Shown here piece by piece: positions 4,317 through 17,786 of a stretch of 21,013 nucleotides of DNA. Position 1 is the stretch's first letter; every line of letters begins with the position of its first letter. Source of the DNA: a virus; IMG/VR virus record IMGVR_UViG_3300030520_000120, positions 1 through 21,013 of that record; one strand, 5' to 3'. Under the pieces are notes generated by a model. That model saw only the letters and a list, made by a program, of their open reading frames with translations, ran no database searches and was not told the DNA's origin. Made by a program: the position numbers and the translations under genes.

Positions 4317-4697
4317 TCAATAGGGGGCGATCTTTGTGCGGAGCCGATCCAGCAACGCGATCTCCCGCAGGTTCGCGGCGGTTCCGCTTTTCTTGCTCAA
4401 TTCGCCTAACCGCCTCTGCACCGTTTCGACCACCCATGTCTTCTCTTCGGGCGTCAGCCTGACCACGTCTGAGAATGTGGCACTTTCCTCGCGGTACGCC
4501 CTATACCAGTTGTACAGCGTATTTTGCGGTAGCCCCAAGCGTCTTGCCACCACAAAGCAAGGGTCGGTTGCCGAAATCATTTTCACGGCACCGAGCTTGA
4601 ACTTGGCGCTGTACCTTTTGCGCGTCTTTGGTGCGTTGCTTTTCTCTTTCGATACGCGAGACGACGGGTTGGCGACGGATTTTCTACCGGGCGGCAT
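4317..4697 (-). CDS. IS3 OrfA-like HTH protein without a transposase partner
   Basis: The protein has 126 residues. The minus-strand ATG at 4697 is chosen over 4823 because AGGAAAA lies about 9 bases before it. After a basic N-terminus, KRYSAKFKLGAVKM (about 27-40) and VARRLGLPQNTLYNWYRAYRE (about 50-70) match the helix-turn-helix of IS3-family OrfA/HTH_28 proteins, and LTPEE (81-85) follows as in that family. The C-terminal part then differs from the usual leucine zipper: it runs through KKSGTAANLREIALLDRL and ends in KIAPY. There is no OrfB/DDE gene on either side and no terminal inverted repeats were found. I infer a domesticated DNA-binding regulator rather than a live IS. It is the last gene of the leftward cluster. 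Confidence 0.7.
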   Translation of the reverse strand: MPPGRKSVANPSSRVSKEKSNAPKTRKRYSAKFKLGAVKMISATDPCFVVARRLGLPQNTLYNWYRAYREESATFSDVVRLTPEEKTWVVETVQRRLGELSKKSGTAANLREIALLDRLRTKIAPY

Positions 4698-4774
4698 CAG
4701 CAATTTTCCTAGTTGGGGTTGGTTGATTGAAGCGTCAATCGTGGCAGTTGGCATGCGTCTTCGCCCGCGAGCGC

Positions 4775-4972
4775 TTAACGACGGGCGAGCGCGGCGGTGC
4801 GCATCTCCTGACAGGTGAAGCACACCCAGCGCGACGAATTACCGCGCGGAATGACGCTCCCCTTTTCCGCATTGGCAAAGCCCTGGTGGTCGCTGCAGAA
4901 CCTTCGTCCTGTCGCAACCACCGTTGCCGCCGTTACCTCCACGTTGATGGGCGCGCGCTGTTTGTCGGACAT
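4775..4972 (-). CDS. Small putative zinc-binding protein
   Basis: The protein has 65 residues and is not a member of a family I can name. AAAGGA lies about 8 bases before the minus-strand ATG at 4972. Cys26-x2-His29 and Cys51-x2-Cys54 form a plausible treble-clef or zinc-ribbon set (RRFCSDHQ and WVCFTCQ). The protein ends in a short basic helix. It lies between the OrfA-like gene and an 82-residue gene, all leftward, each with its own ribosome binding site, so they are likely cotranscribed from the promoter near 5963. Small zinc proteins in phage regulatory clusters often bind DNA or host enzymes; the actual role here is unknown. Confidence 0.6.
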   Translation of the reverse strand: MSDKQRAPINVEVTAATVVATGRRFCSDHQGFANAEKGSVIPRGNSSRWVCFTCQEMRTAALARR

Positions 4973-6106: not shown

Positions 6107-9100
6107 ATGACCCAGCGCCCGCGCATTGTTCTTTTCTTCTTCAAAGCCGCCTCCATTCCTGAAGGCGCGCACTGGATGACGGTCCACCCGAACGGGCCGG
6201 GAACCAAGGGCCAGCCTGTCTTGGTGCAGCCGGTTTCGCCCGACTCCAAAACGTCCCATGTGATCGGCGGCGCAGGCGGCAAACTCAATTACCTCAAAAT
6301 CACCAGTACCAAATCTGCCGGTGACTATGCCAGGGAATCGGCAGAACGCGCCAAAGCGCGGCGCCAGGCCGACAAGGACCAGCGCATCAAGGATAAAGAG
6401 TTGGGCGTGGCCGATGTCAAAAAAGAAGCCAAGGGCGACGTCGCCGTCAAACGCAAGGCCGCCGAGCAGGCGTTCATCAAGACCGTCGCCGATGCGATGG
6501 GCTGGGACCATGATGCGATCGCTTTCGATCAAAAAGCCCACGAAGGACTGTCGCAGGGAGCGTTAAAAAAGGCCGGCGATCAACACCACCGCGCCACGCT
6601 TTCCGCTGCCAAGGATGCCGTCAACCTGCAGCGCAAGCGCCTGCTGGTCGACGCCGATGCCCGCAAACAGGCATTTACCGGCGAGATGCCGCTGCACACG
6701 GACGACTCCACACAATTGTCGGTGTCCGACCTCGACCCGGTGCGCGCCGATACCGGTATGGGGTTCGACCCGCACTACAAGGACCGTGCCGAGGCCGCCG
6801 GGCTGACGCCTGAAGAGGTCAAGGCGGAAAAAGCCGCTATCGCCGTCCAGGCTGCTTCCGATGCGGTCGAAACGCCGGACGTCGCGGCACCGAAAGGGCC
6901 GAGCGTCGCCGATAAGATCAAAGCAGAGCTCGCAAAGGTCAACGTCGACCGCCCGGATCTGCAGGCCAAAATCGTCGAGGTGCAGCAGGCCGTCGCGTTG
7001 TTGAAGGCGCAAAAGCAGCTTGCAAACATCCACAAGGCGGCGCGCGAGGCCACCTCGGCAATTGACCGCTCGGTCGAGCCCAAGGCCTACGTGCTGGAAC
7101 CAACCGATGCGTCGGACTCCGATATCGAAAAAAGCATCGGCGAAGATCTGCGCACCATTAAAACGGTCGCTTTCCTGGCCGCCGTCAACAAGGCCGATCC
7201 GCAAGGCTCCGAGCTTGAGCATCATGTCGCCGCCGGCGCTTTTAACTCGATCAACGCGATGGCGCTGGCCGCTGGTGGCCATGCGCTGATGGACCGCTCG
7301 GTGGTGGACGTCCTCGGTGCCGCCGCTGCATCCCAAGTGTTAGCGCGCCGACTGCGCGCGGATCTGGGTGACGAAAAAGCCGACGACATTGCCGAAAGCA
7401 TGGGTGACTTCCATTTGCAGCACTACGAGGATCTGTCCGTCTCGGCGCTGGCCGACGTCGCCGAACTGCACGAACAGGCCGCGCAACTTGATTTGGATGG
7501 CTCCGACAACGCCGAGGATTTGCTGCTCAAGGCGGAATTGAACCGCAAGCGCATGAGCGCGCTGGACGACGCGCAAAAAGTGCTGGGGCGCTCGCTGGGG
7601 GAAATGGAGGCCAACGCCGCGATCACCTATGCCTTGCGCGAAAAGGGCCGCAATGCCGTCCAGGTATCCCTTGGCAAGACCCCGCTCGACGCCGCGATTA
7701 AGCAGTTGCGTGCGATCGGGCTGCAAAAGGGAGATTACGCAATCGAAAAAGGCGGCAGCAACGCCTTCGTCACGATCAACGCGTCTGGCATGGATTGTCT
7801 GGCCCGGCCGGTCGATGCAGAAAACGTCGAGCGCATGCGCCGCAACCTCGGGATCATGAACGGCGCCGAAGACGAAGACGGTTGGCTGCCGAAAGGTTTT
7901 GCGAACCGGGCCGATCTGGCGTTAAAACTGCAGCCGGGGGTGGCGGACGCCATGGCGATCCCGTTCGAGCCTGGCACCGATTTGACCGCCTCGCTGAAGG
8001 ACTACATCGGGAGCCGCACGGCTGATGGCGATATGCCGGCCGATATCCTGTCGGATCTGCAATCGGCCGATTTCTTCCAGAAAGTCGGGGCTGCGCGCGC
8101 CACCGAGTACCGGGCGGCGCTCGATCAGGTTGCGCCCAACAAGCATCCGGACGGCAAGCAACTGCAGCGAGCCGAGGATCTATCTCCGCTGTTCAACCAG
8201 TACGCGGATGATTTCGTCGGCACCAGGTGGGGCGGCGAACGGTCGGCATTGAATAGCCAGACGTTCTCCGCGGACGATGTGGCGCAGGACGCCTTGCACC
8301 GGGCGCTGTCTGCGCAGCCCACCGGCGCGTGCGCCTACAAGCAGATCGGCGACTTGAACGACGGTGACATGCGCGCGCTGCGCAACCATTTCTATGCCAA
8401 CGTGGCAAAGGAAAGCCCCGAGCATGCCCAGCTCCGCGCGGATCTGGACAAGAACCAGGCGCAGGAGCCGGAAAAGACCACGGTCGATCTATTTGGTGAC
8501 ACCATGCCCAACCCGGACCACCAGGCATGGGCCTCGGCGCGCGACGAACTGACCACGAAAATCAAGGCTAGCGGCCTGAACTGGCCCGACTACGTCAAGA
8601 CCATGCGCAGTCCGGCCGCTGCCTACTCGGCGATGCAGGATAGCGTGCGTTCCACGGTTTCCGCCGAATTCGCCAAGCACTACAACATCTTAAAACCGGA
8701 CAAGCCGCTCAAGGTCGGACGCACGGTCATTCGCGGCAACTTGAACCATTTGGATGCAGTCGATCCGGCGGCGCGCGAAGCACGGATTCAATCCGAGCGG
8801 GAGCTGATCGATTCCCTGCGCGAACGCCACAACGGCAAATACACGTCAGGTTCCGTGGCGCACAAACTGGACGCCGCCAAGGAGCAAAAGGCCGCATTCG
8901 CGCAGTCGCAAATGGGCTTTTTCAGTTCGGATGAGGCACCGGCCGGATCTGGCGCCGACAAGTCGGAGCCACGTCCGCTCGGGCCAGATGAACGCCACAC
9001 GATTGGCCACGCCGCCGAGAACAGAATCGCCGCTATGATGGGCGTGGTCGGCAAGAACTTTGTTCCTGGTCAACCCGTTAAATTGTTTCACGCCTCGATG

Positions 9101-10663
9101 TCCGGCGGCGACAACGTCAAGCGGCAGCGGGCAATCAAATTCATGAAGGCCAACAAGCGCATGGTCGCCGGGCTTGGCGTCGGTTCGGGTAAGACCGGCA
9201 TCGGCCTGGGGGCATTCGTGGATCTGCATGCCGAGGGCAAGGTGAAAAAAGGCGTCTTTGTGGTGCCGTCGATCGTGCAGGGCCAGTTCGGCTCCGAGGC
9301 GCTACGTTTCCTGGAGGCAGGCAAGTTTAACTGGCATTGCCAACCAGGCGCGTCGCACGCGGAACGGCTCGCCTCCTACAAGGATACGAATACCGATTTC
9401 CACGTTGTCACGCATCAATCGTTCCGCGACGATTTATTAAAAATCGCCGCCAGGCAGGACGGTAGCACGTCGGATGATGTCGCCACCAAGATGGCGGCCA
9501 TGTCAGGAGACGAGCGCCAGGCATTCATGAAGGGCGCGCTTGCCAAGGAAGGCATTGCCTTTGACTTTGCCATGGCCGATGAAGCGCATGGCCTCTTGAA
9601 CCGGGAAGGAAAAGACAACAGCATCATGTCGAATGCGGTACAAAGCGTGACCGATGACGTCGCGTATTACCTGCATGCGTCCGGCGATCCGATCAAGAAC
9701 GACGCCTCGGAAGCCTTTGACTTGCTCGCGAAAATGGACCGCAAGCGCTACAACGACCGCGCGGCGTTCATGCGCCGCTACGGTGGCGATACCAAGTACG
9801 CGCAAGAAGGGCTGCGCCGCGAGCTGGCCCGCCACGCCTATACCGCATCCATCAAACCGGACGTCAACGTCACCAGGCATGAACGGCATGTGGAAATGAC
9901 CCACTCGCAACATGCCGCGCTGGCTGCGGTTGACAGTAATGTCGCCGCCGTCCGGATTGCCAAGATGCAGGGCAAGGTCAACATTCCGGCGCTACAGGCG
10001 CTTTCCCCCGAATCGTTCGCCGGCGCCGATGAATCGCACCATGAGGCGATCGCGCACAGTCTGACCAAAGCGATCGGCGTCATCGCCAATTCGGCCATCA
10101 ACCGTGTGATCAACGCGCACCCGGATTCGGGCAAGTTGAATGACCTTTCAAGTCTGGCGACTGAGTTACATGATCGGCCAGGCGTCGTCTTCGCCCGTTC
10201 GCTGGCGGCGGTCGACCAGATCAAGAGTCGTCTGGAGGGCGAGGGCCATCGCGTGATCGTGGTAACCGGCAAGGATTCGTCCAAGGACAAGGCCGCCAAA
10301 ATCCGCGCGTTCAATCCGGACTCGGGCGAGCGCCGTGCCGACATCGTGATCTGCTCGGACGCGGGCGCGGTCGGCGCTAATCTGCAGAGCGGCAGTTGGT
10401 TGGCGCAGTACGACACGCCCGACACGGCGATGGTCCACAACCAGCGTGCCGGGAGGGTTGCGCGCATCGGCCAGCAGAACGACGTCGACCTGTACGACTT
10501 GATCGCCAATCATCGATTCGAGCGCAACGCTCGCGCTCGGTTGTCGCGCAAGGAAGACTTGCGCCATGTTGTCACCAACCCGCTCGATGGTCTGGACGAC
10601 ACAGGACTCGCTTCCTTCCTGTTCCACAAGCAGCAGGCTTCCGTGCAGGCATCGATGTTCTAG
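6107..10663 (+). CDS. Giant Snf2-type helicase encoded among the head genes, possible virion-delivered antirestriction protein
   Basis: The protein has 1518 residues. An in-frame stop at 6089-6091 rules out an earlier start. The N-terminus has the HWMTVHPNG...GGAGGKLNYLKI segment (about 23-65), which recurs at the start of several proteins encoded after phage head morphogenesis genes. A long helical, Ala/Lys-rich region follows. The C-terminal ~500 residues form an SF2 helicase: Walker A GVGSGKTG (K1029), DEAH at 1158-1161, and motif VI NQRAGRVARIGQQ (Q1446), whose RIGQ ending is typical of Snf2 enzymes. It should use ATP to translocate on DNA. P1 DarB is a comparable large helicase packaged in the virion that protects injected DNA from restriction. 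No methyltransferase motif (NPPY/DPPY) was found, so the parallel is partial. Copurification with the head is an inference. Confidence 0.82.
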   Translation: MTQRPRIVLFFFKAASIPEGAHWMTVHPNGPGTKGQPVLVQPVSPDSKTSHVIGGAGGKLNYLKITSTKSAGDYARESAERAKARRQADKDQRIKDKELGVADVKKEAKGDVAVKRKAAEQAFIKTVADAMGWDHDAIAFDQKAHEGLSQGALKKAGDQHHRATLSAAKDAVNLQRKRLLVDADARKQAFTGEMPLHTDDSTQLSVSDLDPVRADTGMGFDPHYKDRAEAAGLTPEEVKAEKAAIAVQAASDAVETPDVAAPKGPSVADKIKAELAKVNVDRPDLQAKIVEVQQAVALLKAQKQLANIHKAAREATSAIDRSVEPKAYVLEPTDASDSDIEKSIGEDLRTIKTVAFLAAVNKADPQGSELEHHVAAGAFNSINAMALAAGGHALMDRSVVDVLGAAAASQVLARRLRADLGDEKADDIAESMGDFHLQHYEDLSVSALADVAELHEQAAQLDLDGSDNAEDLLLKAELNRKRMSALDDAQKVLGRSLGEMEANAAITYALREKGRNAVQVSLGKTPLDAAIKQLRAIGLQKGDYAIEKGGSNAFVTINASGMDCLARPVDAENVERMRRNLGIMNGAEDEDGWLPKGFANRADLALKLQPGVADAMAIPFEPGTDLTASLKDYIGSRTADGDMPADILSDLQSADFFQKVGAARATEYRAALDQVAPNKHPDGKQLQRAEDLSPLFNQYADDFVGTRWGGERSALNSQTFSADDVAQDALHRALSAQPTGACAYKQIGDLNDGDMRALRNHFYANVAKESPEHAQLRADLDKNQAQEPEKTTVDLFGDTMPNPDHQAWASARDELTTKIKASGLNWPDYVKTMRSPAAAYSAMQDSVRSTVSAEFAKHYNILKPDKPLKVGRTVIRGNLNHLDAVDPAAREARIQSERELIDSLRERHNGKYTSGSVAHKLDAAKEQKAAFAQSQMGFFSSDEAPAGSGADKSEPRPLGPDERHTIGHAAENRIAAMMGVVGKNFVPGQPVKLFHASMSGGDNVKRQRAIKFMKANKRMVAGLGVGSGKTGIGLGAFVDLHAEGKVKKGVFVVPSIVQGQFGSEALRFLEAGKFNWHCQPGASHAERLASYKDTNTDFHVVTHQSFRDDLLKIAARQDGSTSDDVATKMAAMSGDERQAFMKGALAKEGIAFDFAMADEAHGLLNREGKDNSIMSNAVQSVTDDVAYYLHASGDPIKNDASEAFDLLAKMDRKRYNDRAAFMRRYGGDTKYAQEGLRRELARHAYTASIKPDVNVTRHERHVEMTHSQHAALAAVDSNVAAVRIAKMQGKVNIPALQALSPESFAGADESHHEAIAHSLTKAIGVIANSAINRVINAHPDSGKLNDLSSLATELHDRPGVVFARSLAAVDQIKSRLEGEGHRVIVVTGKDSSKDKAAKIRAFNPDSGERRADIVICSDAGAVGANLQSGSWLAQYDTPDTAMVHNQRAGRVARIGQQNDVDLYDLIANHRFERNARARLSRKEDLRHVVTNPLDGLDDTGLASFLFHKQQASVQASMF

Positions 10664-10960: not shown

Positions 10961-11917
10961 ATGGAACACCCCTTTTATTCATCGTCCGACCAGGCGCTCC
11001 TGGACGCCTCTCCGAGTTTTCTGAGCATCGGCGATCTGTTCAAGGCGACCCCGGCGATCGAGGGCACGCAGCGCTTTATTTACATGGAAGCGTCGAACGA
11101 ATCGCGCGATCTGCAGGATGAGGTGATTTTACAAAAGGCGTTGCAACAGTCAGCCGACTATTTCCTGAAATTCGGCAATATCGACCTCGACCACTACACG
11201 CAGATCGGACGCCCGAACCCGGCCAAGGGTTATCCGGGCATTCCGAACTATGAGGCGTTCGAGATCGGCCGTCCGGTCGACGTACGCGTCGATGGCAGTC
11301 GCACCTTCGTCAAGGCGCACATCGCCGCCGGTGCCGGTCCTGCCGCCGAGAAAGCCAATTATTTCTGGTCGTCGATCGCCGACCTTGATCCGCCCAAGCG
11401 CTGGTATCCGTCGGTTGGTGGCGCCGTGCTGGAAAAAGCGCTGTCCATCGATCCCAGCACCGGCGCCAAGTTTCCAGTGATTACCAAGGTGCGATGGGGA
11501 AATATCGGCATGAGCCTGACCCCGGTCAATGCCGACGTCCCCGAGGTGTCCTGCGTGCCGATCGGCGTGCTCGCTAAAAGCTGGGGCGCGGCGGGCCTGG
11601 ACTTGCGCAAGTCGCTGGAAGCCGGCGGCCAGGGATCGGACGTCGCCGATTTTACGGGCGGCGCTGCGCTCGGCAAGCAGTCTTTGGACAACGGAGTCCA
11701 GCCGGGCGTGCTCTCGTATTGGGATTTTCGCGACCGCTTCGCGCGCCTGATCCACAGCGGCGACATGAAGACTGGGGATGCATCGAACATGGTCAGGGAG
11801 GCCGGTTCCCGTTTCGGTCTTTCCAGTACAGAGGCCGCCGAGTACGTCGAGCGGTTTCTGGACGATTTGAAACGGGGATTGACGGGTGTAACGACAAAGG
11901 AGAAACAACCAACATGA
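10961..11917 (+). CDS. Capsid maturation (prohead) protease
   Basis: The protein has 318 residues. ATG 10961 is used; the longer frame from 10868 reads through the previous gene out of character. The first ~190 residues have the layout of the herpesvirus-like/HK97 prohead proteases: strand FIYMEASN, then GNIDLDH with the probable catalytic His78, then RWYPSVGG with the probable nucleophile Ser151 in a P-S-V-G context. The segment KVRWGNIGMSLTPVN follows. The enzyme would cut scaffold and capsid protein inside the procapsid. Residues 217-243, beginning Lys-Ser-Leu, closely match residues 30-55 of the major capsid protein; another KS (206-207) lies just before. The C-terminal ~70 residues are helical. 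The stop overlaps the scaffold start (ATGA), as expected for coupled protease and scaffold. Confidence 0.82.
   Translation: MEHPFYSSSDQALLDASPSFLSIGDLFKATPAIEGTQRFIYMEASNESRDLQDEVILQKALQQSADYFLKFGNIDLDHYTQIGRPNPAKGYPGIPNYEAFEIGRPVDVRVDGSRTFVKAHIAAGAGPAAEKANYFWSSIADLDPPKRWYPSVGGAVLEKALSIDPSTGAKFPVITKVRWGNIGMSLTPVNADVPEVSCVPIGVLAKSWGAAGLDLRKSLEAGGQGSDVADFTGGAALGKQSLDNGVQPGVLSYWDFRDRFARLIHSGDMKTGDASNMVREAGSRFGLSSTEAAEYVERFLDDLKRGLTGVTTKEKQPT
11609..11689 (+). repeat. Protease copy of a segment shared with the capsid protein
   Basis: These 27 codons (protease residues 217-243) start KSLEAG and end KQSLD. They match capsid protein residues 30-55 at about 19 of 26 aligned positions with one single-residue gap. 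Only the first 14 bases (TCGCTGGAAGCCGG) are identical in DNA; the rest has synonymous drift. Confidence 0.8.
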
Positions 11918-12642
11918 GCTTTGAACAACTACTGGAAACAATGGGCACTCTTGCCAAGGCGCAGCCTGCGGCGCAGACGACAGTCGAGGGAAACAAGAAG
12001 ATTCAGGCGGCGGCTGCCGAGGGCGAGAACGACGACGATCAAACCAATGCCGACAACAACGGCGGTGGCGACGGACTGGCCGCTGACGGCATCGATGCAA
12101 CCGGCAAAGGCAAGCCGCTGAATAAATCCTTCCTGTTGACGATGGCCGACGGCTCCGAGATGGAAGCCTTCGACGGCACCGACATGCTCAAGTCGTTGAC
12201 CGCGCGCCTGGAAGCGTCCGAAGCCGAGTTGGCCGCCGAGATAGAGCGTGGTCATGCGACCGAAGACAAGGTCTTGAAATCCCTGCAAGCGGCGGTCGGC
12301 TTGATCGCGGCGCAAACGGAAACCCTGAAGACACAGGGCACGATGATCAAGTCCTTGAACGAGCGCGTCGGCGTGCTCTCCGGTATCGGGCGTGGCGTGC
12401 GCTCGGTGCGGGCTGTCACGGACTTGAGCGGCATGGAGTTGAACAAATCGTTGAACAAATCGCTGACCGGCCAAGGCCATGGTCATGGCGAAGCGATGTC
12501 GAATCAGCAAATTCTCGCCAAATCGCTCGGCGCCATGAAGGCGGGGCGCATTTCCGGGCTGGACGCCACCCGTATCGAAGCCTCCATCAACCTGGGCATC
12601 CCGGTGTCCGCCGAGCTGCTGTCTGCAATCTCCGGCAATTAA
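11914..12642 (+). CDS. Probable capsid scaffolding protein
   Basis: The protein has 242 residues from ATG 11914, which overlaps the protease stop by 4 bases (ATGA) and has AAAGGAG about 15 bases upstream. It lies between protease and capsid genes, the standard place for a scaffold. The N-terminal 70 residues are disordered and acidic (GENDDDQTNADNNGGG). Residues ~88-150 are a predicted coiled coil (TARLEASEAELAAEIER...). The C-terminus has a His/Gly patch (GQGHGHG) and a conserved-looking end. Lys-Ser-Leu or Lys-Ser-Phe occurs seven times, with Lys at residues 71, 93, 122, 146, 178, 182 and 203, fairly evenly spaced after residue 70. That would suit a protein to be chopped by the neighbouring protease. 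Two of the sites come from a tandem exact 12-mer (12439-12462). Confidence 0.7.
   Translation: MSFEQLLETMGTLAKAQPAAQTTVEGNKKIQAAAAEGENDDDQTNADNNGGGDGLAADGIDATGKGKPLNKSFLLTMADGSEMEAFDGTDMLKSLTARLEASEAELAAEIERGHATEDKVLKSLQAAVGLIAAQTETLKTQGTMIKSLNERVGVLSGIGRGVRSVRAVTDLSGMELNKSLNKSLTGQGHGHGEAMSNQQILAKSLGAMKAGRISGLDATRIEASINLGIPVSAELLSAISGN
12439..12462 (+). repeat. Tandem 12-bp repeat encoding LNKS-LNKS
   Basis: TTGAACAAATCG occurs twice in tandem within the scaffold gene, duplicating one Lys-Ser site. The codons are identical, so the duplication looks recent. Confidence 0.85.
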
Positions 12643-12665
12643 GCAACCAAGCGAAAGAACCCTTG

Positions 12666-14132
12666 ATGTTTCAAAATCTACTTACCCCAGGCAACGGCTC
12701 GGGCCTGACGACGTCGGGCAGTTTAGGCAACGCCGAATTCGAGGCGCTGCAAAAATCGCTGGAAGCCGGTTACGGCAGCGATATGGCGCAATTGACCGGC
12801 GGCTCGGCCTTGCGCATTCAGTCGCTCGATACCGCGATGCAAGCCACCGTGCAGGACAACAAGCATTTCACCCTGTTCAACAGCCTGGCGAAGCCGCGCG
12901 CGACGGCGGTGCTGGACGAATGGACCGAACAGGCCGACATTGGTGGCATCTTTGGCGGCACGTTTAACACGCAGGATGGCATCGCCGCCGAAACCAACGG
13001 CGATTACGCGCGTATGGTCGGGCAAGTGAAATACATGAGCACCTATCGGAAGATCCCGATGGTGCTGGAGGCGCAGAACAATATCGTCGATGCGGTCTCG
13101 CTGGAAACCACCAACGGCACCAAGCAATTGCTGACCGACATCGAAATCGGTTTGTTTGAGGGCCGCAGCGACGTGACGCCCCTGGCCTTCCCCGGCTTGC
13201 GTCAGCAGATCGAATCGTTGGGCAATCCCGACAACATCATCGATCTTGCCGGCGGCGCATTGGCGTCGGTCGATGCCGTCTCGCAAGCGGCGGAAACTAT
13301 CTATGGCTACGGCTCGTTCGGCACCGCCACTGATATCTTCCTGCCGCCGTCGATCCAGACCGATTTGAACAACAACCTCGATCCGGCGTTCCGCATCGGC
13401 TTGAACGATCAGGCGATCTCGACCGTGCGCGGCACGAACGTGACCGGGATTCAAACCTCGTACGGCAAGATCAGCACGCGCAACGACATTTTTATCCGCG
13501 ACGAGAAACTGAAAAAGCCGTTTGAGACGCGCAACGCCACGTATTTGGCCGTGGCGGTCGCCAACAACAGTTTTAAACCGGGCGGCGTAGCGCTGTCGGT
13601 TCCGGCGGCGGACGCGGCATCGGCTTTCCTGTCCTCGCAAGCCGGCAACTTTTACTATTTTGTGACCGGCATCAATCAGTATGGCGAATCGCAGGGCATC
13701 TTGTCGGCGCAGGTGGCGGTGGCCAGCGGGCAGTCGGTGAATCTGACCATTACGGCATCGGCATCGCAGCAGGAGACCGGCTATGTGATTTACCGCTCGC
13801 GCATGAACGGCTCGAACCAATTGACCGATCTGCGGGAAATGACGCGCGTGCCGTACGTCGCCGGATCGGCCAACACGGTCTTCACCGATCGCAACTGGGA
13901 AATTCCCGGCTCGACTGCGGCGTTCGTGCTGAACCTGTCGCCGTCGGACCACGCGATCGCCTGGCGCCAGTTCATGCCGATGCTGAAAATCCCGATGGCG
14001 GCGACCAATAGCCCGATCATTCCATGGATTCAGATGATCTGCGGCTATTTGCGGGTCACCAAGCGGGCGCAGCACGTCGTCATCAAGAACGTGGTGCCGA
14101 CCGGCGCGAAATGGCAGCCGTTCGGCGGCTGA
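12666..14132 (+). CDS. Major capsid protein
   Basis: The protein has 488 residues. ATG 12666 is preferred to the TTG one codon earlier; the ribosome binding site is weak (GAAAGAA). It follows the scaffold by 23 bases and ends just before a strong terminator. Features fit an HK97-fold coat: a helical N-arm, then about 100-300 with TDIEIGLFEG and FLPPSIQTDL, and a C-terminal AWRQFMPMLKIPMA...WIQMICGYLRVTKRAQHVVIKNV segment. About residues 325-410 look like an inserted beta-sandwich domain of Ig/fibronectin type (FYYFVTGINQYGESQG, VNLTITASA, GYVIYRSRMNG), a common surface decoration. Residues 30-55 are nearly shared with the protease, and K30-S31 is a candidate maturation cut; in HK97 the mature coat starts at a Ser in a comparable context. 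Confidence 0.88.
   Translation: MFQNLLTPGNGSGLTTSGSLGNAEFEALQKSLEAGYGSDMAQLTGGSALRIQSLDTAMQATVQDNKHFTLFNSLAKPRATAVLDEWTEQADIGGIFGGTFNTQDGIAAETNGDYARMVGQVKYMSTYRKIPMVLEAQNNIVDAVSLETTNGTKQLLTDIEIGLFEGRSDVTPLAFPGLRQQIESLGNPDNIIDLAGGALASVDAVSQAAETIYGYGSFGTATDIFLPPSIQTDLNNNLDPAFRIGLNDQAISTVRGTNVTGIQTSYGKISTRNDIFIRDEKLKKPFETRNATYLAVAVANNSFKPGGVALSVPAADAASAFLSSQAGNFYYFVTGINQYGESQGILSAQVAVASGQSVNLTITASASQQETGYVIYRSRMNGSNQLTDLREMTRVPYVAGSANTVFTDRNWEIPGSTAAFVLNLSPSDHAIAWRQFMPMLKIPMAATNSPIIPWIQMICGYLRVTKRAQHVVIKNVVPTGAKWQPFGG
12753..12830 (+). repeat. Capsid protein copy of the segment shared with the protease
   Basis: These 26 codons (capsid residues 30-55) start KSLEAG and end IQSLD, matching protease residues 217-243. 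The segment lies immediately after the proposed K30|S31 maturation site, in the N-terminal arm. Confidence 0.8.
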
Positions 14133-17036: not shown

Positions 17037-17786
17037 ATGTCAAAAGCAATCTACTCGGACGATGAACGAAGAGTAATTAAACAGACAGTCGAAGAACTAG
17101 GCAACAAAAAGATGAAAGAAGGTTGCCATGGTTTTAGAGACTACTCAGACAAAACCATTCGTGAGGCAGCAAGACTGCAACTTAACAAGCCAAAAAGTGA
17201 GAACAATGCTGCGATCTCCGTTATTGGCGTCGTGCTTGGGGCGAACAGAAATTGGGAAAAAGTGGTTCGCCCTAATCTGGATTCCCTCAAGGACTCTCAA
17301 AAATACGGAAGCATGACGTTTGAGCAACTCGAAGGACTATTGATTGCCATAAACTTTGAGGGCTTCAAAGAAGTTTGGGGCCACAGAGACGAAAAGAAAT
17401 ACAATACTCTGAAAGAGTTAGTTGCGGCCATTCGCGATTTTGCACAATTGCATCCGGGGTTAAGCGATTTCGATCTGATGTCACAATGGGCCAGAAATGC
17501 AAAATTGGAGAATCGAAGAACCGATATACTGGGCTCCATTCGGAATGTTGGAATCGCAACATTTCAGCATCTTCGACTTACATTCGGAGTGGACACGGTT
17601 AAGCCGGATCAGCGTGTAATGGAAGTTTTGCAACTTGAATTTGGTAAAAAACTTTCCCCTTCAAAAGCGATATTAGAGGTCGAAGAAATTGCTCGCATTG
17701 CGGGTCAAAGCGTAGCTATGATCGATCAGATTTTTGTCAAGTATGGATCGGGTTACCTAAAAAAGAACTCATCTTGCGAAGATTGA
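17037..17786 (+). CDS. HhH-GPD DNA-glycosylase-like protein (cargo gene)
   Basis: The protein has 249 residues. GAGGGAA precedes the ATG. It is clearly more AT-rich than its neighbours, with codons unlike theirs. The C-terminal half has the helix-hairpin-helix plus Asp layout of the HhH-GPD superfamily: IRNVGIATFQHL (N170-V-G172) followed by FGVDTVKPDQRVMEVL with the probable catalytic Asp191. The position of the lyase Lys in endonuclease III is Ala174 here, so a monofunctional (AlkA/MutY-like) base excision enzyme is predicted, if active. No Fe-S Cys cluster follows. The N-terminal ~120 residues are helical and not recognised. It is inserted between two neck genes and convergent with the next gene. 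A defence or modified-base role is inferred only. It could also be a non-catalytic HhH DNA-binding protein. Confidence 0.55.
   Translation: MSKAIYSDDERRVIKQTVEELGNKKMKEGCHGFRDYSDKTIREAARLQLNKPKSENNAAISVIGVVLGANRNWEKVVRPNLDSLKDSQKYGSMTFEQLEGLLIAINFEGFKEVWGHRDEKKYNTLKELVAAIRDFAQLHPGLSDFDLMSQWARNAKLENRRTDILGSIRNVGIATFQHLRLTFGVDTVKPDQRVMEVLQLEFGKKLSPSKAILEVEEIARIAGQSVAMIDQIFVKYGSGYLKKNSSCED

Follow-up and report, generated by a model that had tools for sequence, protein, structure and literature searches.

The stretch of viral DNA analysed here, hereafter the window, comprises the 21,013 nucleotides of IMG/VR record IMGVR_UViG_3300030520_000120 (positions 1 to 21,013). It encodes a head maturation protease and a major capsid protein (MCP) that share a segment of about 27 residues, which in the MCP forms the amino-terminal arm (N-arm). 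The features of the locus are as follows.

10961..11917, + strand: head maturation (prohead) protease gene, product P0001, 318 residues (phrog_1028, E 6.7e-21, residues 28-247).
11069..11530, + strand: core of the protease catalytic domain, residues 37-190 (AlphaFold2 predicted local distance difference test, pLDDT, mostly 91-98).
11576..11581, + strand: K206-S207, a putative self-cleavage site at the end of the protease domain (K206 invariant in 22/22 aligned relatives and in 52/52 close relatives).
11609..11689, + strand: MCP-N-arm-like segment K217-D243 (KSLEAGGQGSDVADFTGGAALGKQSLD), recognized by alignment and profile, predicted disordered and starting with a second K-S (K217-S218).
11717..11899, + strand: C-terminal three-helix domain of the protease, residues 253-313 (pLDDT 89-96 in blocks 251-310).
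11914..12642, + strand: scaffold-like gene, product P0002, 242 residues, placed between protease and MCP like SPO1 gp3.3 and enriched in K-[SA] dipeptides (nine, against 3.2 expected).
12666..14132, + strand: MCP gene, product P0003, 488 residues (phrog_752, E 2.4e-80).
12753..12830, + strand: MCP N-arm segment K30-D55 (KSLEAGYGSDMAQLTGGSALRIQSLD), with S31 as the expected first residue of the mature MCP.

By profile and fold, the protease and the MCP are ordinary members of their families. The protease, which has no Pfam match at E 0.1, belongs to the gp21/assemblin fold: its top Foldseek matches are the pseudorabies and herpes simplex virus 2 proteases and T4 gp21 (probability 0.97-1.00, E ~1e-3). 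The MCP is an SPO1-like HK97-fold protein of the Herelleviridae type, best matched by the SPO1 capsid (9vel, E 5.6e-25) and by phi812 (5lii). No match was obtained for the scaffold-like P0002 in PHROG or Pfam.

When the whole protease was aligned against the whole MCP by the Smith-Waterman method, the best local alignment was the shared segment, with a score of 89 (E ~3e-7) and 19/26 identical residues. All 300 shuffles of the protease scored lower (maximum of 52). At the DNA level, identity across the segment is 50/78 bases, the longest exact run is of 14 bases (TCGCTGGAAGCCGG), and the same codon is used at 7/19 identical residues, against about nine expected from the phage's own codon usage. 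The initial annotation, which had paired protease residues 217-243 with MCP residues 30-55 and had noted only 14 identical DNA bases, is thus reproduced exactly on realignment, and the shuffle comparison it had proposed came out clearly on the side of a real match. Its placement of the segment just after a K-S site requires adjustment: a K-S is present in both proteins, yet it is part of the shared segment instead of preceding it, and the protease has another K-S, K206-S207, upstream of it.

Relatives were collected from annotated phage records, two scans with the window proteins, and two profile scans of viral contigs; a scan of genome contigs with the window protease returned no relative. 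The profile used to call proteases covered the catalytic domain only and was cut at K206, so that the tail had no part in selection. This yielded 186 loci with both genes, and 112 non-redundant pairs after proteases more than 90% identical were dropped. Among these, 106/112 pairs presented a protease-MCP Smith-Waterman match with E<1e-3 that also exceeded 100 shuffles, and in 103 of these 106 the match sits behind the protease domain and inside the first 80 MCP residues. A hidden Markov model (HMM) built from MCP N-arms only detected the segment in 107/109 proteases of the two main clades (43/44 Herelleviridae-like and 64/65 Gram-negative-type), and in 0/2,260 shuffled proteases. When the profile was limited to Herelleviridae-like MCPs, it still detected 62/65 Gram-negative-type proteases, and the reverse profile, from Gram-negative-type MCPs, only 17/44 Herelleviridae-like ones. 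The paired occurrence that the initial annotation had suggested searching for is therefore not peculiar to the window: the protease of nearly all relatives closely repeats the ~27 residues with which the mature MCP begins, as in SPO1 (LDKSLEAGYEVDPEKMEGGDVFRKESLD in protease gp3.2, LNKALEAGHTVNPLDLEGGGAFRVESLE in MCP gp6.1), Staphylococcus phage 812 (KSFLTGHGTSPDTQVDAGALRKEEI and KSFQTGYGITPDTQIDAGALRREIL, respectively), and Listeria phage P100.

When 16 records were searched whole with a 36-residue profile, 13 gave exactly two matches, one in the protease and one in the MCP, and no third copy was found elsewhere in any of the 16; the scaffolds of 25 phages contained none either. The Thermus phage Cumys gave zero matches with this profile, given that its segment has an insertion, yet its protease and MCP align directly with a score of 122. 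On these comparisons, the existence of the shared segment as a real, old and family-wide feature is secure, and it is its function that we infer. No description of the segment was found in the open-licence literature, which is weak evidence of novelty, as other journals could have described it.

The two copies are also coupled within each phage. Over 28 segment columns, protease and MCP segments of the same phage are 61% identical in the Herelleviridae-like clade and 71% identical in the Gram-negative type, whereas pairs mismatched within a clade give 44% and 65%. Herelleviridae-like protease segments are nearer to the MCP of their own phage (61%) than to the other proteases of that clade (46%); between clades, all segment comparisons give identities of about 37-40%. 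A partial Mantel test given catalytic-domain and MCP-body distances yielded r=0.53 (p=0.0005) over all pairs and r=0.44 (p=0.0005) in the Herelleviridae-like clade, with permutations that leave some relatedness effect in place. Swapping partners between nearest relatives worsened the match in 26 pairs and improved it in 12 (p=0.017). Private variants common to protease and MCP are found in Cumys (TAGDPHALD..GL.GVPAIR.ESLE), Brochothrix A9 (HGGTDQ), and L165 (TTGHE.NP.EQ). These values indicate co-variation of the two segments over and above general relatedness, with significance in the Herelleviridae-like clade. Gene conversion, considered as a general cause of the likeness, is rejected for most lineages by comparing codons at identical residues: over all pairs 923 are the same versus 854 expected (z 3.3), an excess that is strongest in a few phages (e.g., L093 and L069) and is absent from the window, SPO1, 812, A9, Touem01, and L165.

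The AlphaFold2 model of the protease, built with 52 aligned relatives, presents a confident catalytic domain (residues ~37-190), a low-confidence region (202-249) containing both K206-S207 and the segment, and the confident three-helix domain (253-313), for which Foldseek, queried with the complete model, returned no counterpart. Residues 215-249 have pLDDT <50 and are predicted disordered; the segment is of low confidence in the MCP model too (residues 24-53). Nevertheless, the segment carries 3.22 bits of information per column, compared with 3.04 for the catalytic domain and 2.16 for the C-terminal helical domain, i.e., it is conserved about as well as the catalytic domain while its flanks drift. 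Given this degree of conservation in a region predicted to be disordered on its own, the segment looks like a binding peptide.

Regarding maturation, the mature MCP starts at the K|S site in Staphylococcus phage 812: in its deposits (9row, 9rox, 9roz) the chain starts exactly at S25, behind K24 and homologous to S31 of the window. For SPO1, 9vel models 434-445 of 468 MCP residues, and one chain with 445 modelled residues (468 minus 23) has the length expected if it started after K23. The scaffolds of 25 phages contain 246 K-[SA] dipeptides, about twice the 116 expected and with a hydrophobic residue at P3, versus 68 against 84 expected in MCP bodies. The apparent cleavage consensus is limited to P3-P1' ([LVMI]-x-K|[SA]), a pattern which the putative protease site K206-S207 also fits, and no downstream motif was found at the scaffold sites of these 25 phages. 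Hence, the protease probably does not rely on the motif to recognize its cutting sites, and cleavage is unlikely to require it. In both proteins the segment usually begins at a K-[SA] dipeptide or a few residues after one; in Gram-negative-type proteases, the invariant K206 site mostly precedes it by 7-13 residues.

We consider it rather probable that the protease segment is a mimic of the mature MCP N-arm, which would dock the protease inside the procapsid and be removed by self-cleavage at K|S. In the scheme that we infer, for docking, self-cleavage, copy number and order of events alike, the mimic would sit on a flexible linker that follows the catalytic domain. In the nascent head it would fill an MCP N-arm site, belonging either to an adjacent MCP or to a complex of scaffold and MCP, and in this way some tens of protease molecules would be loaded into the procapsid. 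The protease, once on, would cut [LVMI]-x-K|[SA] sites in the scaffold, in the MCP propeptide and in itself; self-cleavage at K206|S207 and/or K217|S218 would free the catalytic domain, and the leftover tail fragment would then begin like a mature MCP. As a more tentative extension, which we hold to be possible but somewhat doubtful, the protease of SPO1-like phages and their Gram-negative relatives might take the N-arm slot in the shell lattice itself, and the similar N-termini left after cleavage might compete for, or share, this site, coupling enzyme release to shell locking.

Among the three readings offered by the initial annotation (docking peptide, self-cleavage substrate mimic, and target for a common scaffold surface), the docking peptide fits best, given the conservation of the segment, its predicted disorder, its coupling to the N-arm of the same phage's MCP, and its absence from all other proteins of the searched records. 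Prohead protease has also been found by mass spectrometry in virions of Staphylococcus phage fRuSau02 (PMC5618024) and Listeria phage CKA15 (PMC12282133), and is annotated as particle-associated in the fHe-Yen8-01 record, all of which is counted in favour of docking.

Under the substrate reading, the protease would recognize the segment in both proteins as the prime-side part of a substrate to be cut, and the protease tail would act as a pseudo-substrate, either holding the enzyme inactive or setting the time at which it cleaves itself. The position of the segment at, or a few residues past, a K-[SA] dipeptide agrees with this. Nevertheless, the abundant scaffold sites lack the motif, the consensus is confined to P3-P1', the invariant K206 site of the Gram-negative-type clade lies at some distance from the segment, and the relatives L003, L004 and L040, described below, keep the K-S without the motif. 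The scaffold sites and these relatives weaken the substrate mimic in particular, and we regard it as unlikely.

The third reading is that both segments bind the same surface of the scaffold, which thereby gathers protease and MCP into the core. Most of the annotated relatives have adjoining protease, scaffold and MCP genes in a constant order, which is consistent with it, and in other phages head proteins are commonly loaded by the scaffold. However, the segment stays in the mature MCP, as observed in the 812 deposits, and this retention, together with the coverage of the SPO1 MCP in 9vel, suggests a role in the shell itself, at a stage when the scaffold has presumably been destroyed. A scaffold-binding peptide is hence quite improbable. 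Least credible of all, and in our judgement very improbable, is a functionless relic, arisen when a partial duplication placed the MCP 5' end in the protease tail, with occasional gene conversion within the genome keeping the two copies similar since then. The slight overall codon excess would agree with it, yet the excess is absent from the window and the other phages named above, the segment is conserved like a catalytic domain within a flexible linker while its own flanks drift, and the proteases that carry it belong to two clades with a segment identity of only ~0.37 between them.

Several observations weigh against docking by N-arm mimicry. In close relatives of the window (L003, L004 and L040, a group that includes IMGVR_UViG_3300049255_000117), the protease reads LRKSLPANGVTSNRQPL, i.e., the K-S is kept and the motif is gone, while the MCP N-arm is intact. 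In a whole-record search, the Thermus phage Lalka27b has the motif in the MCP only, with none in the protease; Bacteroides phage DAC19 (L027) has a protease without the motif and a very divergent MCP that keeps it in its N-arm (profile E 0.001). Given these losses, the protease segment is not universally essential. The protease copy of the window is itself diverged and atypical for its clade, with an extra G222, Q224 where Y is usual, and G238 where R is usual, and may be decaying. As for coupling, the partial Mantel test is not significant in the Gram-negative-type clade (r=0.09, p=0.11), perhaps due to the low segment variation there, and the partner swap is not significant in the Herelleviridae-like clade alone (10 vs 6). 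The initial annotation would have given up the pairing if homologous phages carried the segment in only one of the two proteins. This is the case in the few lineages above, with the segment degenerate in L140, and concerns 4/112 pairs, which points to lineage-specific loss instead of refuting the pairing. The trait is thus old and widespread, yet losable.

Other features of the window lie on both sides of this locus.

846-2675: portal gene.
6107-10663: large helicase gene.
4317-4823, minus strand: open reading frame between the portal-side genes and the helicase, with a transposase helix-turn-helix (PF01527, E 5.2e-12) and matches to PHROG transposases.
17037-17786, plus strand: open reading frame of 249 residues among the tail genes, with no Pfam or PHROG match, possibly a cargo gene.

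The transposase matches suggest an insertion sequence, or a remnant of one, inside the phage structural region. In the related record IMGVR_UViG_2846458514_000001 (L119), the protease gene is missing and the helicase frame is apparently fused to the scaffold C-terminus, the region being otherwise similar; this resembles the outcome of a deletion in that record reaching from the helicase into the scaffold gene.

For tailed phages and herpesviruses alike, getting a limited number of proteases into a closed shell is a fundamental problem of assembly. The defined, co-varying peptide of ~27 residues, present in phages as well studied as SPO1, Staphylococcus 812 and Listeria P100, provides both a candidate docking sequence and a candidate site. 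If the docking is true, it would allow a direct test of protease loading and supply a tag with which other proteins could be packaged into these capsids.

Known systems present partial parallels. The herpesvirus assemblin (UL26) protease belongs to the same fold family as the window protease, and its C-terminal scaffold part binds the MCP and brings the protease into the procapsid; this targeting part is scaffold sequence and not a copy of an MCP segment, in which it differs from the phage segment. As in the scheme proposed here, the HK97 protease gp4 is encapsidated with the MCP and removed in maturation, and encapsidation domains are reportedly announced in the title of a 2013 paper on it by Duda, Oh and Hendrix. 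T4 gp21 shares the fold of the window protease, and in T4 a short cleavable peptide, the capsid targeting sequence, directs proteins to the prohead interior and is then cut off by the head protease (PMC9026906). This peptide is N-terminal and of about 10-20 residues, unlike the segment, which spans residues 217-243 of 318, behind the catalytic domain. Encapsulin cargo-loading peptides, which are short and mostly C-terminal, likewise tether enzymes inside an HK97-fold shell (PMC8346489).

HK97 and T4 were also considered as further cases of a shared segment and were rejected: the gp4/gp5 score of 47 was reached by 15/300 shuffles, with no comparable segment, and the gp21/gp23 score by 120/300, with no shared segment. 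A likeness to the encapsulin targeting peptide (GSL..SL) was rejected as well, given that 5.5-75% of shuffles reach the observed mean of the consensus SDGSLGIGSLKRS against the segments.

A precedent is SPN3US gp245, which sheds a 64-residue C-terminal propeptide by self-cleavage; it has been proposed that this propeptide directs the protease to the prohead interior (PMC7411985; see also PMC5694885), and the case is counted here in favour of docking. Like the protease of the window, SPN3US gp245 and phiKZ gp175 carry a C-terminal tail, self-cleaved in the former and C-terminally processed in the latter. Their cleavage, however, follows glutamate and not lysine, and the available parts of these sources mention no MCP-like segment. 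Protease-targeting tails as such are thus already known; what would be new here is a protease-targeting tail that copies the N-arm of the capsid protein.

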